IMG/VR virus record: IMGVR_UViG_3300045950_000104
Coordinates: 1-27,165 of that record
Source: a virus
Strand: one strand, 5' to 3'
Length of the DNA stretch: 27,165 bases
Made by a program: the position numbers and the translations under genes. Shown piece after piece: positions 5,631-20,768 of the stretch. The notes beneath the pieces were generated by a model. That model was not told the DNA's origin. It saw only the letters and a program-made list of their open reading frames with translations, and did not search any database. The first letter of the stretch is position 1; every line of letters starts with the position of its first letter.

Positions 5631-5725
5631 GCGAAGCCCCGCCGTCGGCTTTGTTCTTGCTGTAGGTGCCGGTGCTCCGCACACGGGCGGCGGACCCGCG
5701 CGCGGAGGTTCCTTCTGCTACCGCG

Positions 5726-6658
5726 CTACTTCGTCGTGATGGACCACTCGTCGTTGCCCGCGCTTGAGGGCTGCAGGATCATGGCGAGCGACTTCATCGA
5801 GAGCATGTCCTCCGCGCCGATCGCCGGGCGCGTCAGCTGCACGTTCGCCGCGTCGAACACCACCTGGTTGGTCGCGGGGCCGTGCGTGATCGCAAGCGCC
5901 CCGAGCGTCTCGTTCTTGACGATCGTGTACCAGTCCTTGGTCGCGATCAGCTCGTCCTCCAGCCGCACCTGCCCGGTCGATTCGCGGTCGATCCAGCGGA
6001 TCGCCTCGCTGTTCGGCAGGTTGCGGTACACGAGGTTGTTGCCGAGCGTGACGCTCAGGTCGCCAAACTTGCCGGCGAAGCCATGCAGCGTCATCGGCGT
6101 GGTGTTGGCGTTGTTGACCGGCACGGGCTTCTTGAACGCGCTGAGCGTCGGCGCGGGCACCGCCTGGTCGAGCGGCCCGACGTACAAGCCCAGGAACCGG
6201 AACGCGTAGAACGGCGCCCGGTTGCGCGGCCAGTTGAGCGTGACATCGCCCAGGTTGCCGAGCACCTTGTGCAGCCGCCCGTCGAGCCAGAAGTACATCG
6301 AGCCGGAGCTGCCCGCACCCGGGTGCACCGGGGCGTACACGACCTTGACCGTGGCGGTGATCGTCTGCGAGCAGCCGCAGCACTTGAGGAGCGGGCCGTA
6401 GGCCGGGGCGACGTCCACCGTGCCGCTCCCCGCCATCTCGACCTCGAACGTCGTCTCCACGTGCTGGCCGGCGACAAGTTCGCCCAGGTGCCCCGAGTAA
6501 CCGGCGTCGAAGCTGCGCTTGTCGTAGAGCGCCTCGAGCGGCCGGATGCCGAAGTTGCGGACAAGCACCGCGTTCGCGGCCGCCGTCGGCCCCGCGTCGG
6601 TGCCGTACGTCGTCTCTTCCTTGAAGGCGACGACCTTGCGTCTCCAGCGCAGCGGCAT
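5726..6658 (-). CDS. Major tail tube protein (310 aa)
   Basis: The ATG at 6658 lies two bases after the preceding stop. The protein opens MPLRWRRKVVAFKEETTYGTD, and the motif KEETTYGTD near the N-terminus is typical of phage tail tube subunits. A CCGC cluster occurs near residue 94. Position between terminator/connector genes and the chaperone pair, together with a strong transcription terminator directly behind it, fits an abundant structural protein. No tail sheath gene precedes it, so the tail is expected to be non-contractile. Specific assignment rests on the N-terminal motif and gene order rather than on any catalytic residue. Confidence 0.85.
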   Translation of the reverse strand: MPLRWRRKVVAFKEETTYGTDAGPTAAANAVLVRNFGIRPLEALYDKRSFDAGYSGHLGELVAGQHVETTFEVEMAGSGTVDVAPAYGPLLKCCGCSQTITATVKVVYAPVHPGAGSSGSMYFWLDGRLHKVLGNLGDVTLNWPRNRAPFYAFRFLGLYVGPLDQAVPAPTLSAFKKPVPVNNANTTPMTLHGFAGKFGDLSVTLGNNLVYRNLPNSEAIRWIDRESTGQVRLEDELIATKDWYTIVKNETLGALAITHGPATNQVVFDAANVQLTRPAIGAEDMLSMKSLAMILQPSSAGNDEWSITTK

Positions 6659-6660
6659 CG

Positions 6661-6933
6661 TCAGACCCCTTTCCTAGTGCCCTTGGGCTCGGCCGCCGGC
6701 GCCGGGGCCGGCGCGGGCGTGGAGGCCTCGGCGGACGCCCAGGGCGCCGGGGCCGGCGCCGGCAGCGCGGGCTGTGGGTTCCCAGCGGGCTTTTCCTCGA
6801 TCGGCTTGCCCTGCGCGTCGCGCGGGCGATCACCCTCCGGGTGCGGCTTCGTCGCCTCCTCGACCCGGCGGCGTTCGCCCGTCGCCTTGTCCACCTCGTA
6901 GGTCCCGCCCTCGCCGTGGTGCTTGTCCGTCAT
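6661..6933 (-). CDS. Small Pro/Ala-rich phage protein (90 aa)
   Basis: ATG 6933 overlaps the previous stop (ATGA). The N-terminal half is highly charged (MTDKHHGEGGTYEVDKATGE), and the C-terminal half is a low-complexity run of A, P and E such as PAPAPAPWASAEASTPAPAP, expected to be disordered. The gene belongs to the tail operon between a terminator-like protein and the tail tube gene. I do not recognise a family. The coupled start and stop positions support it being translated. Confidence 0.7.
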   Translation of the reverse strand: MTDKHHGEGGTYEVDKATGERRRVEEATKPHPEGDRPRDAQGKPIEEKPAGNPQPALPAPAPAPWASAEASTPAPAPAPAAEPKGTRKGV

Positions 6934-7355
6934 GTCTTCCTCACGTAGTAGGCCGTCACGAATTCATCCAGCCACCACAGCACCCGATCGCGCAGGCGCA
7001 GCAGCCGCCCGCCCCCGTACTCGCACGGGTCGCGATCGGCGTCCGGCGCCCAGCCGAGGAGCGCCGTAATCACCGAATCGCGTAGCGGCGCAAGCTCGGT
7101 CTGCGCCTTCGCGCCGCTCGCGTCGCGCAGGTTCTGCACCGCGAGCGCCACGCCGAACCGGGAGACGACGCGCTGCGAGACGGCGTTCTCCAGCGTGTTC
7201 GCCTGTGCGGCATCGCGGAGAGGAATCACGAACGCCGCCGGCTCGATCTTGAGTGCCGCGAGTGCCTCCTCGAAGTCCGCCGCGCCTCCCACCTTCTTGA
7301 GCGCAGTGACCTGCGCGTCCAGACGCGCGATGATCGGATCGAGAGAAAGGTCCAT
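6930..7355 (-). CDS. Tail terminator-like protein (141 aa)
   Basis: The protein begins MDLSLDPIIARLDAQVTALK and includes GGAADFEEALAAL and PAAFVIPLRDAAQANTLEN, followed by RFGVALAVQNLRDASG, a pattern I associate with Gp37/tail-terminator-like proteins of Mu-type siphophages. Such proteins cap the tail tube and join it to the head. The size (141 residues) and position after the gp36-like connector agree. It overlaps the next gene by ATGA and starts three bases after the preceding stop. Function is inferred from family pattern and order. Confidence 0.75.
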   Translation of the reverse strand: MDLSLDPIIARLDAQVTALKKVGGAADFEEALAALKIEPAAFVIPLRDAAQANTLENAVSQRVVSRFGVALAVQNLRDASGAKAQTELAPLRDSVITALLGWAPDADRDPCEYGGGRLLRLRDRVLWWLDEFVTAYYVRKT

Positions 7356-17900: not shown

Positions 17901-18197
17901 TCATTCCCCCGGCCGCGGGCGCCGGACCCCGGGGTGTTGCGTGCGCCCCTGGGCGACGTCCAGGCCCCGGCCGGTGAGTCTCGGCACCTGAACGTCGGCC
18001 ACGGCGTCAAGTTCCACGAGACCAGCTTCCTCGAGCCAGGCGAGATCGGCGCGCAGCCGATCGCCGCTCACCGCGTGCCCGAGCCGCTCGAGCGCCTCTT
18101 GCAGCAGGTATTCGTGCGCCTTGTATTCGTTGGAATCGGAGAGCAGCCGCAGGATCGTGAGCCGGCGGTCTTCCTCGCGCAGTTTCGCGTAGCTCAT
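17901..18197 (-). CDS. Mu gp26-like winged-helix protein (98 aa)
   Basis: ATG 18197 overlaps the stop of the gp25-like gene by ATGA. The protein (MSYAKLREEDRRLTILRLLSD, then YLLQEALERLGHAVSGDRLRADLAWLEEAGLVEL) reads like a winged helix: helices, a recognition helix with GDRLRADLAWL, and a beta wing in DVQVPRLTGRGLDVAQG. This matches gp26-type proteins of Mu relatives, often annotated as ArsR-like. Whether it regulates transcription or helps packaging is unknown. Size and order match Mu. Confidence 0.8.
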   Translation of the reverse strand: MSYAKLREEDRRLTILRLLSDSNEYKAHEYLLQEALERLGHAVSGDRLRADLAWLEEAGLVELDAVADVQVPRLTGRGLDVAQGRTQHPGVRRPRPGE

Positions 18198-18499
18198 TTG
18201 CTCTGGTTGAGCAGGTACTCGCTGATCATGGAGAGCTGCTTCGAGATCTGCGTGAGTTCCCCGATCACCCGCTCGACGGCGGCGCGCGTTTCGTTCATCT
18301 CGGTCCAGAGCTTGGACAGATCGTCGTGATCGGGCATCTTGGTGACCCGCGCCTCGATCGCGGAGAGCCGCTCGGCGTGATCGGCGACCGCGGCCCGGGT
18401 CTCGTCGTTGCGCTGCGCGAGCCAGCTCCAGGCGCCGACCGCAGCGAGCAACACGAACTGCGCGACGTCGACCCAGACTTTCAGAGCGTCGTAATCCAT
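18194..18499 (-). CDS. Mu gp25-like protein (DUF2730, 101 aa)
   Basis: The protein has an N-terminal membrane segment (VWVDVAQFVLLAAVGAWSWLA, about 9-29) followed by a long coiled coil (AERLSAIEARVTK, LSKLWTEMNETRAAVERVIGELTQI). This one-anchor plus coiled-coil layout is that of DUF2730, Mu gp25. It could be anchored in the inner membrane with the coiled coil outside or inside. Because no separate spanin is visible in the lysis region, a link to lysis is conceivable, but that is speculation. It begins three bases after the zinc-finger gene's stop. Confidence 0.83.
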   Translation of the reverse strand: MDYDALKVWVDVAQFVLLAAVGAWSWLAQRNDETRAAVADHAERLSAIEARVTKMPDHDDLSKLWTEMNETRAAVERVIGELTQISKQLSMISEYLLNQSK

Positions 18500-18502
18500 C
18501 GT

Positions 18503-18718
18503 TTACCTCTTGTCGTTCACGCGTTCGGCCTCGGCCTGGCACTCGACGCAGCGCGTCGCGCTCGGCAGCGCGCGTCGGCGAGCGGCCGGGATCTCCTCGC
18601 CGCAGTCGGCACAAATCCCGGAACCTGGCTCCCCCAGCGCCGCGGCACGGGCCTGCGCACGCAGCCGGTCTGCGAGATAGGCCGCCTCGCGCTCCTGCGC
18701 ATGGTCCGCTTCGTCCAT
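18503..18718 (-). CDS. TraR/DksA-type zinc finger protein (71 aa)
   Basis: ATG 18718 overlaps the holin stop by one base (TGATG); an upstream GTG at 18721 is the alternative. The protein has a helical N-terminus (MDEADHAQEREAAYLADRL) and a C4 zinc finger CADC...CVEC with GICADCGEEIPAARRRALPSATRC, the DksA/TraR signature. Such small phage proteins can bind in the RNA polymerase secondary channel as F-plasmid TraR does and change host or phage promoter activity. Here the acidic N-terminal start resembles TraR. The role at late promoters is inferred. Confidence 0.87.
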   Translation of the reverse strand: MDEADHAQEREAAYLADRLRAQARAAALGEPGSGICADCGEEIPAARRRALPSATRCVECQAEAERVNDKR

Positions 18719-19131
18719 CACTTACCGGGCGCGCCCTTCCACGCCGCGACCGCCTTCTCCGTCGAGCGCCCGATCACGTAGCCGCCGACGCCGATGTTCA
18801 TCAGCGTCCAGAGATGATCCGGCAGCTCGAGCACCGGCGCCGTCCCGGCCCCGAAGAGCGCGTTCACGTAGGGCGCGAGCAGGTAGTTGTTCGCGACGAT
18901 CGCGACGATGGTGAGCATCAGCAGCGGCCGCCAGTTACGCTGCATCCAGGATTGCCCCTGGGCCTCGGCCAGGATGATGTTCACCGCGCCCTGGAGCTCG
19001 GCGTGCGACTGCTGGAGTACGGCGAGTGTGACCTCGGCCTTGAGCTTCTCGGCCTGGTCCTTGTCCGGCACCGCCTTGTCGATCACGCGGCCGATGAGGC
19101 TCGAGATCGCGGGAATGAGCACTTGCAGCAT
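18718..19131 (-). CDS. Holin candidate, 3TM family (137 aa)
   Basis: ATG 19131 is preceded by AAAGGAG at eight bases. The sequence starts MLQVLIPAISSLIGRVIDKAV, then a charged amphipathic stretch (DKDQAEKLKAEVTLAVLQQSHAEL), then WMQRNWRPLLMLTIVAIVANNYLL and HLWTLMNIGVGGYVIGRSTEKAV. This is the layout of phage three-transmembrane holins (PF11351-like), which collapse the membrane at a set time and release endolysin. It lies in the lysis cassette between the AlgH-like and TraR-like genes. It ends in GAPGK. Confidence 0.85.
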   Translation of the reverse strand: MLQVLIPAISSLIGRVIDKAVPDKDQAEKLKAEVTLAVLQQSHAELQGAVNIILAEAQGQSWMQRNWRPLLMLTIVAIVANNYLLAPYVNALFGAGTAPVLELPDHLWTLMNIGVGGYVIGRSTEKAVAAWKGAPGK

Positions 19132-19157
19132 CGTTCGTTCTCCTTTCAGAGGCGCAT

Positions 19158-19781
19158 TCAGCGCGCCCTCGCTTCGATCCGCCAGCGCGCGCCGCCCGGG
19201 CGCGCACCCGCGCGACGCATCACTTGGTCGTAGAGGCCGCTCGTGTCGGCGAGGAAAAGCTCCGCCGCGTCCACGCTCGCGAGCGCGAGCGAGCCGTTGC
19301 GGATCTGCTCGGCGAGCAGACCAGGAGCCCAGCCCACCAGGCCCATGTAGTAGCGCGCCTCGTTCGGCGTCGTCTCGATGATGCGGTCAATCGCGGCCTC
19401 GGTGCCGACGAGCCAGACGCCGGGCATCAGCTCGAGCGAGCCTTGCGCCGGCACCGGCGCGACGCGCGCGATCGCAAACAGTACGTCGCGCGAAGCGGCG
19501 CCGCCCCAGTACACCTGGTCGCGCACCTCGCGAGACGGCACGTGCTCCGGGAAGAGCATGGCGAGCCGGATCTGCATCGGGCGGTTGAGCACGACGCCGA
19601 CGTGCCCGCCGCGCGGCAGCGGCGCGACCACCATGACGGCGCGCTGATAGAGCCGGCCGTCGAGCTTCGGCGTGGCGGCAACGAACACCGCGCCCGCGTC
19701 GATATCGGGCGCGGCGGGCTGCTGAGCGATCGAGGGCACGATGACGAAAAGGAGCAGCGCGCAGGCGAAGGCGCGTCTCAT
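19158..19781 (-). CDS. Exported YqgE/AlgH-like (DUF179) protein in the lysis cassette (207 aa)
   Basis: ATG 19781 overlaps the DUF5675 stop (ATGA). An N-terminal signal peptide (MRRAFACALLLFVIVPSIAQ) leads into a DUF179-like domain: TPKLDGRLYQRAVMVVAPL, GGHVGVVLNRP (58-68), VYWGG (90-94), and YYMGLVGWAPGLLAEQIRNG (144-163), which is the conserved GWxPGxLxxE pattern. Bacterial YqgE/AlgH proteins are cytoplasmic and poorly understood; the exported version here is unusual. In this position phages normally carry endolysin, spanin or regulators, so a periplasmic lysis role is possible. The family match is by motif; the function is unknown. Confidence 0.8.
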   Translation of the reverse strand: MRRAFACALLLFVIVPSIAQQPAAPDIDAGAVFVAATPKLDGRLYQRAVMVVAPLPRGGHVGVVLNRPMQIRLAMLFPEHVPSREVRDQVYWGGAASRDVLFAIARVAPVPAQGSLELMPGVWLVGTEAAIDRIIETTPNEARYYMGLVGWAPGLLAEQIRNGSLALASVDAAELFLADTSGLYDQVMRRAGARPGGARWRIEARAR

Positions 19782-20212
19782 GAGGACCTCCGGGTGAACG
19801 CCTCGATGATGTCGAGGCGGAATTCGTCCACATGCCGCAGGAGCGAGAGGAACTCGTCGAACCCCTGCTGGCTCGCGGTAATGCCTGGCCTGCCGAGCAC
19901 AGGGTTGAAGGACTCGCCGACCAGGATGCAGCCGTGCGTATCGTCTTCGAGGTTGCCGCGGTGGAACAGGATCTCGGAGCGGCCGGGCACATCCATCACC
20001 TGGAAGGTGTCGCCAAAGCGCGGGCTGTCCTTGTAGCCGTAGTCCGGCGAGCGCCGGCAGCGCAGCGCGCGGTATGCGCCCGCCGGAATGCAGGACTCAC
20101 CACGCCGGTTATCGCGCCAGGGGCGCTCGAGCGTGACCGCGAACGGCGTGCCTCCGTGAATCAGCACGCCGTAGGTGGCGATTCCGTTGTTGGCGACTCG
20201 GACGAGGACCAT
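19778..20212 (-). CDS. DUF5675 protein, possible peptidoglycan-acting lysis enzyme (144 aa)
   Basis: This is the first gene behind the putative lysis promoter. The sequence GVLIHGGTPFAVTLERPWRDNRR, GESCIPAGAYRALRC, then VMDVPGRSEILFHRGNLEDDTHGCILVG matches DUF5675. The conserved H (FHRGN) and C (HGCILVG) recall the L,D-transpeptidase arrangement, which suggests a cell wall target; I know of no firm biochemical proof. It lacks a signal peptide and could be released by the holin. ATG 20212 has no clear ribosome site and lies close to the putative transcript start. It is coupled by ATGA to the AlgH-like gene. Confidence 0.8.
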   Translation of the reverse strand: MVLVRVANNGIATYGVLIHGGTPFAVTLERPWRDNRRGESCIPAGAYRALRCRRSPDYGYKDSPRFGDTFQVMDVPGRSEILFHRGNLEDDTHGCILVGESFNPVLGRPGITASQQGFDEFLSLLRHVDEFRLDIIEAFTRRSS

Positions 20213-20281: not shown

Positions 20282-20605
20282 CTAGGCGTCCGGGGCGTCG
20301 CGCGCGGCCACGATGATGCGCTTCAGGGTCGAGAGCGAGATCCCGTACTCCCGGCACAGTTCGACGGCATTCAAGCCGTTGAACCTGGCGACGATCGCCT
20401 TGTTGCGCTCGATGAGCTGGGCCTGGCTCATCATCGGCACGTAGAGGTACTGCCCGCCCCAGTCGAGCCGCAGCTGCGCGACGCACGCATCGGCGACCTC
20501 GGCCGCGACGCCGGCGTCGATCCGGCGCTCGAGGAGCTGGGTCTCGACGATGCTGCGGAGCGATTCGAGCAGCTCGGGGTACTTGGGCCTGGATGGGGCG
20601 TTCAT
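20282..20605 (-). CDS. mor: Mor/C-family transcription activator (107 aa)
   Basis: Starting at ATG 20605, the protein has the Mor/C layout: an N-terminal helical dimerisation part (YPELLESLRSIVETQLLERR, ADACVAQLRLDWGGQYLYVP) and a helix-turn-helix (NKAIVARFNGLNAVELCREYG, then ISLSTLKRIIVAARD). The WGGQYLYVP motif is diagnostic of the family, which in Mu activates middle (Mor) and late (C) genes. Its place at the end of the early block and just before the lysis promoter argues that it switches on late transcription. Its start overlaps the stop of an 11-codon mini frame. Only one Mor/C protein is seen in this window. Confidence 0.9.
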   Translation of the reverse strand: MNAPSRPKYPELLESLRSIVETQLLERRIDAGVAAEVADACVAQLRLDWGGQYLYVPMMSQAQLIERNKAIVARFNGLNAVELCREYGISLSTLKRIIVAARDAPDA

Positions 20606-20637
20606 GGCATAGGCGGAACAACGTGATCGCAGGGCAT
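20602..20637 (-). CDS. Eleven-codon leader frame before mor
   Basis: ATG 20637 overlaps the upstream stop (TGATG), and the frame MPCDHVVPPMP ends in TGA that overlaps the mor ATG (ATGA). A ribosome ending the 43-codon gene could restart here and then again at mor. The peptide itself probably has no function; the arrangement may tune activator translation. It could also be chance. Confidence 0.35.
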   Translation of the reverse strand: MPCDHVVPPMP

Positions 20638-20768
20638 CAGCGCTCCTCTCGCCTCGTGGCGACGCCAAAGCCCACGACGAGGCCCGTGAGCACGTAGATA
20701 GCGGAGTTGATGTCCCAAGCGGCCAAGCCGATGAAATAAATGACGAAGAAGACAAGGAAGAGCTTCAT
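20637..20768 (-). CDS. Small single-span membrane protein (43 aa)
   Basis: A frame missed by size cut-offs: ATG 20768 overlaps the gemA stop by ATGA and TGA lies at 20637. The 43 residues begin MKLFLVFFVIYFIGLAAW and are largely hydrophobic (LFLVFFVIYFIGLAAW, AIYVLTGLVVGFGVA) ending RREER, so one or two membrane helices. Small membrane proteins next to gemA-like genes are common in Mu relatives. Role unknown. Tight coupling supports real expression. Confidence 0.72.
   Translation of the reverse strand: MKLFLVFFVIYFIGLAAWDINSAIYVLTGLVVGFGVATRREER

Follow-up and report, generated by a model that had tools for sequence, protein, structure and literature searches.

An AlgH/YqgE-family (DUF179) protein with a predicted signal peptide in the lysis cassette of a Mu-like phage

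A fragment of a Mu-like phage encodes, among its lysis genes, a DUF179 (AlgH/YqgE-family) protein with a predicted signal peptide: a known family in a new use. We favor the reading, to which we give a probability of about 0.4, that this protein works in the periplasm as an accessory to the lysis cassette, has been adapted to phage use, is inherited together with the holin and probably tunes lysis. AlgH/YqgE proteins are widespread and their structures have been solved, and we found no established function for them; a phage that keeps only the exported form, in a defined lysis cassette, provides a simple assay for the role of the fold. It also suggests a way in which a host-derived envelope factor might come to join the lysis genes of a Mu-like phage that has no recognizable spanin.

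Results

A DUF179 protein with a predicted export signal lies between DUF5675 and a holin

The window (the whole stretch of DNA analyzed, 27 kb) is a fragment of a Mu-like phage whose genome is probably larger. Its minus strand carries, in order, GemA, a Mor/C-type activator, DUF5675, DUF179, a GTA-type 3TM holin, a DksA-like gene, DUF2730, gp27, the large terminase and the portal (Table 1). A first-pass annotation had placed a DUF179-like open reading frame between DUF5675 and a holin, and we confirmed both the neighbors and the exact boundaries of the frame. It opens with an ATG behind a good Shine-Dalgarno sequence (CGGAGG), and the DUF5675 frame overlaps this start by 4 bp. The PF02622 profile matches residues 38–192 over its full length (1–157 of 157; E = 2.5e-21; 76.7 bits against a cut-off of 27), the frame also matches solved AlgH/UPF0301 chains, and the GHVGVVLNRP and GWAPG motifs are present as in YqgE/AlgH. 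Its identity as a DUF179/AlgH protein is firm. No other Pfam family and no PHROG matched the frame, a tblastn search of 50,697 INPHARED phage records with the protein returned no match, and a plasmid search returned distant copies of chromosomal type only. The VarioGold paper, considered as a possible report of a phage DUF179 protein, concerns DUF1799 instead.

Table 1. Features of the lysis region in the window
Feature	Position	Strand	Evidence
Mor/C-type late transcription activator, directly upstream of the cassette	20282..20755	-	Pfam Mor 66 bits; phrog_532 late transcriptional activator
DUF5675, probable endolysin	19778..20212	-	Pfam PF18925 84 bits; slot swap with Amidase_2
Exported DUF179 (AlgH/YqgE-family) protein, 207 aa	19158..19781	-	Pfam PF02622; signal-peptide features; tree; dN/dS
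Predicted Sec-type signal peptide, residues 1–19 of the DUF179 protein	19725..19781	-	Rule-based features
GTA-type 3TM holin (GTA_holin_3TM)	18718..19131	-	Pfam PF11351 74 bits; phrog_3427 holin
DksA/TraR-like zinc-finger protein, downstream end of the conserved block	18503..18721	-	Pfam PF01258; phrog_54
DUF2730, releasin (Mu gp25) family lysis protein	18194..18499	-	Pfam PF10805 37.8 bits

The signal peptide proposed in the first-pass annotation is borne out by its features: the N-terminus (MRRAFACALLLFVIVPSIA before the predicted cleavage site, QQ after it) combines a positively charged n-region, a 16-residue uncharged core and an A-x-A-like site. These calls, for the phage protein and for the exported host proteins described below, come from rule-based scoring and are predictions only. 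The N-terminal hydrophobic segment is the single one in the protein, which has no lipobox and no second anchor.

The setting of the gene directly downstream of the Mor/C-type activator suggests that it is expressed late. This position bears on superinfection control, one of two envelope tasks suggested in the first-pass annotation, in which a periplasmic DUF179 protein would block incoming phage DNA or adsorption. Its exported location would suit such a role, for which we found no other positive evidence; its late place among the lysis genes does not, since exclusion genes are usually early or prophage-expressed, and we consider this reading very improbable.

The cassette also holds one more known lysis-gene family than first recognized, DUF2730. 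Its Mu member, gp25, is a releasin required to release the SAR endolysin of Mu, and among isolated phages the family is found only in transposable ones (PMC9239132). Compared with the lysis genes of Mu (gp22, SAR endolysin; gp23/gp23.1, spanin; gp25, releasin), the window likewise shows a Mu-like order around the Mor/C activator and a DUF2730 gene; it differs in having DUF5675 in the endolysin slot, DUF179 in the cassette, a holin (Mu has none) and no visible spanin pair.

DUF179 stays with the holin while the endolysin gene is exchanged

Two viral contigs from one metagenome, L002 and L003, encode DUF179 proteins 91–93% identical to the window copy. The DNA common to all three (93–94% identity; window 18533–19785) begins at the DUF179 start codon and spans the holin and the DksA gene. 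The gene upstream of DUF179 is DUF5675 in L002 and an Amidase_2 endolysin in L003 (5447–6004; Pfam 52 bits; phrog_822 amidase). Because the shared block excludes this upstream gene, the endolysin has been swapped while DUF179 and the holin stay together; and because the endolysin slot is exchanged beside the same DUF179 gene, DUF179 is not the endolysin replacement. The proposal that DUF179 stands in place of a usual lysis gene thus does not hold: either DUF5675 or Amidase_2 occupies the endolysin slot, the holin and DUF2730 are present, and the protein lacks spanin anchors. The protein was also rejected as an endolysin in its own right, as it contains no peptidoglycan-hydrolase domain, DUF179 being the sole domain matched. 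L002 differs from the window in having a 45-aa proline-rich open reading frame between its DUF5675 and DUF179 genes (~5782–5919).

DUF5675 itself is a family of unknown function that is common in Vibrio phages. Its exchange with Amidase_2 in one slot, together with its invariant residues (R78, H84, N87 and G94-C95-I96), suggests that it is an endolysin. Its H...GC pattern is, we presume, L,D-transpeptidase-like; a search of its profile against the PDB gave no significant match.

Across the window, L002 and L003, the DUF179 gene has a dN/dS of 0.18–0.35, which rules out a chance open reading frame, and in the mature part dN is 0.02–0.03 against a dS of 0.12–0.19. The gene is under purifying selection. 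The signal-peptide segment is the fastest-changing part of the gene, yet its hydrophobic form and overall pattern are preserved in both relatives.

The phage gene nests within an exported beta-proteobacterial clade

We found export signals at the N-terminus of about a third of 80 distant chromosomal DUF179 relatives, and in 11 of 13 genomes the exported copy was accompanied by a second DUF179 gene; cytosolic YqgE is joined in many bacteria by a paralogue that bears a signal peptide. The statement that bacterial YqgE/AlgH proteins are cytosolic, made in the first-pass annotation, is therefore incorrect for a large clade of exported members, which is overlooked when the family is taken to be cytosolic throughout. 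Exported members formed one side of a branch (84/95) in a first tree; in a second, larger tree (78 rows) four Nitrospirota members join the cytosolic rows with weak support, so that the exported form may have arisen more than once. The neighborhoods of the distant exported paralogues contain no conserved partner gene. In beta-proteobacteria the exported genes often form a tandem pair, and clpB adjoins them, in convergent orientation, in 11 of 14 loci examined (chromosomal loci L241–L249, L251 and L252; for example L244:8574–12477); because clpB is convergent and encodes a cytosolic protein, we give this neighbor no functional weight.

Before beta-proteobacterial members were added, the scores of the phage protein against exported and cytosolic HMMs were tied, and the first tree, built without these members, left it on a long branch of unresolved position. 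Its best host matches, reaching 45% identity, came from 399 genomes of the order to which a Rhodocyclaceae bacterium belongs, which from that record we take to be Burkholderiales in the broad GTDB sense. In the 78-row tree the window, L002 and L003 proteins form a 100/100 clade with a host clade, BurkA, and are nested inside it (98/84); identity between phage and host members is 33–45%, and every host protein in the clade has a signal peptide. Because it is nested within an exported host clade, the phage gene is well supported by sequence as a captured beta-proteobacterial gene that inherited its signal peptide, rather than a domain fused to one in the phage, as had first been supposed. Of 98 genomes of one host family, 70 contain close members of the exported clade. 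Neither these 98 genomes nor the 399 of the order yielded a prophage copy of the phage gene.

A second phage type carries DUF179 in a lysis-like cassette

A search with the combined phage and host alignment recovered a 9.3 kb viral contig from another metagenome, L267, whose DUF179 protein is 45% identical to the window copy and begins with a 27-residue hydrophobic segment, a likely signal anchor. L267 encodes a serine integrase, a DGR accessory protein (Avd), DUF5658, an 80-aa frame with an N-terminal TM segment, DUF179, a DUF6527-like protein (below the cut-off of that family), DUF5675 and a 2TM protein that is called holin-like from the layout (PHROG 6637, no known function); its 9.3 kb yielded no Mu gene. 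The Avd gene (114–512) and the integrase gene (5712–7241) flank the DUF179 lysis cassette. All four viral contigs with this type of DUF179 carry it in a lysis-like cassette; they represent two phage types and include two contigs from one metagenome. The best tree joins both phage forms (75/91, not decisive), and the simpler reading is a single phage lineage of DUF179 that would have passed between phages; two separate captures are possible.

Conserved residues changed after capture

The phage protein shares with cytosolic YqgE/AlgH (UPF0301; solved relatives include 2GZO and 2MUI) the full-length domain and both motifs, and differs in its signal peptide, its separate paralogous clade and the loss of P95, E159 and W165. 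The exported beta-proteobacterial proteins likewise have the signal peptide; unlike the phage copy, they are chromosomal, lie outside lysis cassettes and keep the family-invariant residues. A comparison of the three close phages with 75 non-phage relatives revealed three substitutions present in all three phages: P95A (proline in 75/75 relatives), E159Q (75/75) and W165L (74/75). Seven of ten family-invariant residues are kept in these phages (G62, N66, G93, G94, G147, W151 and L156). Neither phage form has kept W165 or W184, two tryptophans that are invariant across 29 host proteins; L267 retains P95, E155 and E159. Because the losses come with purifying selection, they suggest that the function of the protein was altered, rather than decayed, after capture.

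These changes could also mark a decoy, a dominant-negative form that competes with the exported DUF179 of the host for a partner and so weakens the envelope for lysis. Such a role would fit the change of three invariant or near-invariant sites under continued selection and the frequency of the host gene in the family surveyed; the retention of P95, E155 and E159 in L267 argues against it, and we regard it as decidedly unlikely.

DUF179 is an accessory gene, and spanin absence is not specific to its cassettes

The first-pass annotation held that absence from related phages would count against its proposal, and such absence was found in part: none of 67 loci related by their portal gene contains DUF179, the lysis region being covered in 24 of them. 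A weak DUF179 match in L185 proved to be the gp27 gene. DUF179 is thus accessory, not essential to the Mu-like group, and lysis does not need it, since the related loci lack it. The corresponding slots in related cassettes vary, with DUF5658 in L124 and Lipase_3 in L163. The latter gene (L163:3658–4299) lies just before the DksA position and may be a further gene of this variable slot that acts on the envelope.

Variable slots of this kind, along with the clear host origin of DUF179, favor a passenger (moron): the captured protein would keep its ancestral host role, for example in protecting or maintaining the envelope of infected or lysogenic cells, and would be in the cassette only incidentally. 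Against this stand the recurrence of DUF179 beside DUF5675 and a holin-like gene in the unrelated L267, the losses at P95, E159 and W165, which argue against an unchanged ancestral role, and the finding of no sigma-70-like promoter belonging to the gene itself. On balance we think a passenger rather unlikely.

No spanin-like lipoprotein is present in the cassettes of the window, L002 or L003, and no frame of the 27 kb window contains a convincing lipobox open reading frame. The first-pass annotation, too, saw no spanin pair. An outer-membrane-disrupting DUF179 that stands in for the missing spanin would be in keeping with this, and phages without spanins exist: about 13% of those surveyed have no recognizable one, including the Mu-like RcapMu (PMC6139136). 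The protein does not have the parts of a spanin, however, whether a lipobox lipoprotein with an inner-membrane partner or a lipobox with a C-terminal TM segment; a protein that is soluble in the periplasm, with neither a lipid anchor nor a TM segment at its C-terminus, does not suit that design. Moreover, 12 of the 24 scannable portal-related Mu-like cassettes are without a lipobox frame and also lack DUF179, so spanin absence is not specific to DUF179 cassettes, and a spanin may lie outside the window, the genome being partial. We judge a spanin substitute highly unlikely.

Discussion

An envelope-side role in lysis, the other task proposed at first, is supported because location, export signal, purifying selection, co-inheritance with the holin and recurrence in a second, unrelated phage all point to it. 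We propose that phages captured an exported chromosomal DUF179 paralogue of a beta-proteobacterium and retained it in lysis cassettes. The protein would be made late, exported by Sec to the periplasm and assist from there the module that contains the holin, being neither endolysin nor spanin. Its most likely action would be to tune when or how the envelope fails, formally in the manner of the T4 antiholin RI, or to brake envelope damage; it would probably delay lysis rather than help it. Counting against this reading, cassettes also acquire unrelated passenger genes, and the evidence comes from two phage types and four contigs.

Secreted lysis regulators have a precedent in the antiholin RI of T4, a protein with a cleavable signal peptide whose target is the holin (PMC8385771). 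The likeness, a signal-peptide-bearing periplasmic protein linked with a holin, here seen as predicted export and holin co-inheritance, is one of working only: no Pfam or PHROG match links the phage DUF179 protein to RI as a homologue. RI is also far smaller than the phage protein. A bolder form of the proposal, which we advance tentatively, is that DUF179 represents a new class of periplasmic lysis regulator: a domesticated host envelope protein serving as a timer coupled to holin or endolysin and exchanged among unrelated phages together with DUF5675 endolysins.

Multicopy yqgE of E. coli mitigated the effects of L-type single-gene lysis proteins, for which the authors favor indirect effects (PMC10229422). 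This may be a hint of envelope protection, though it comes from a cytosolic protein.

A DUF179 gene of the cytosolic type, without a signal peptide, is present in a 74 kb viral contig (L006:2652–3212), near a lipoprotein open reading frame (1560–1946) and, on the other strand, a DksA-like frame.
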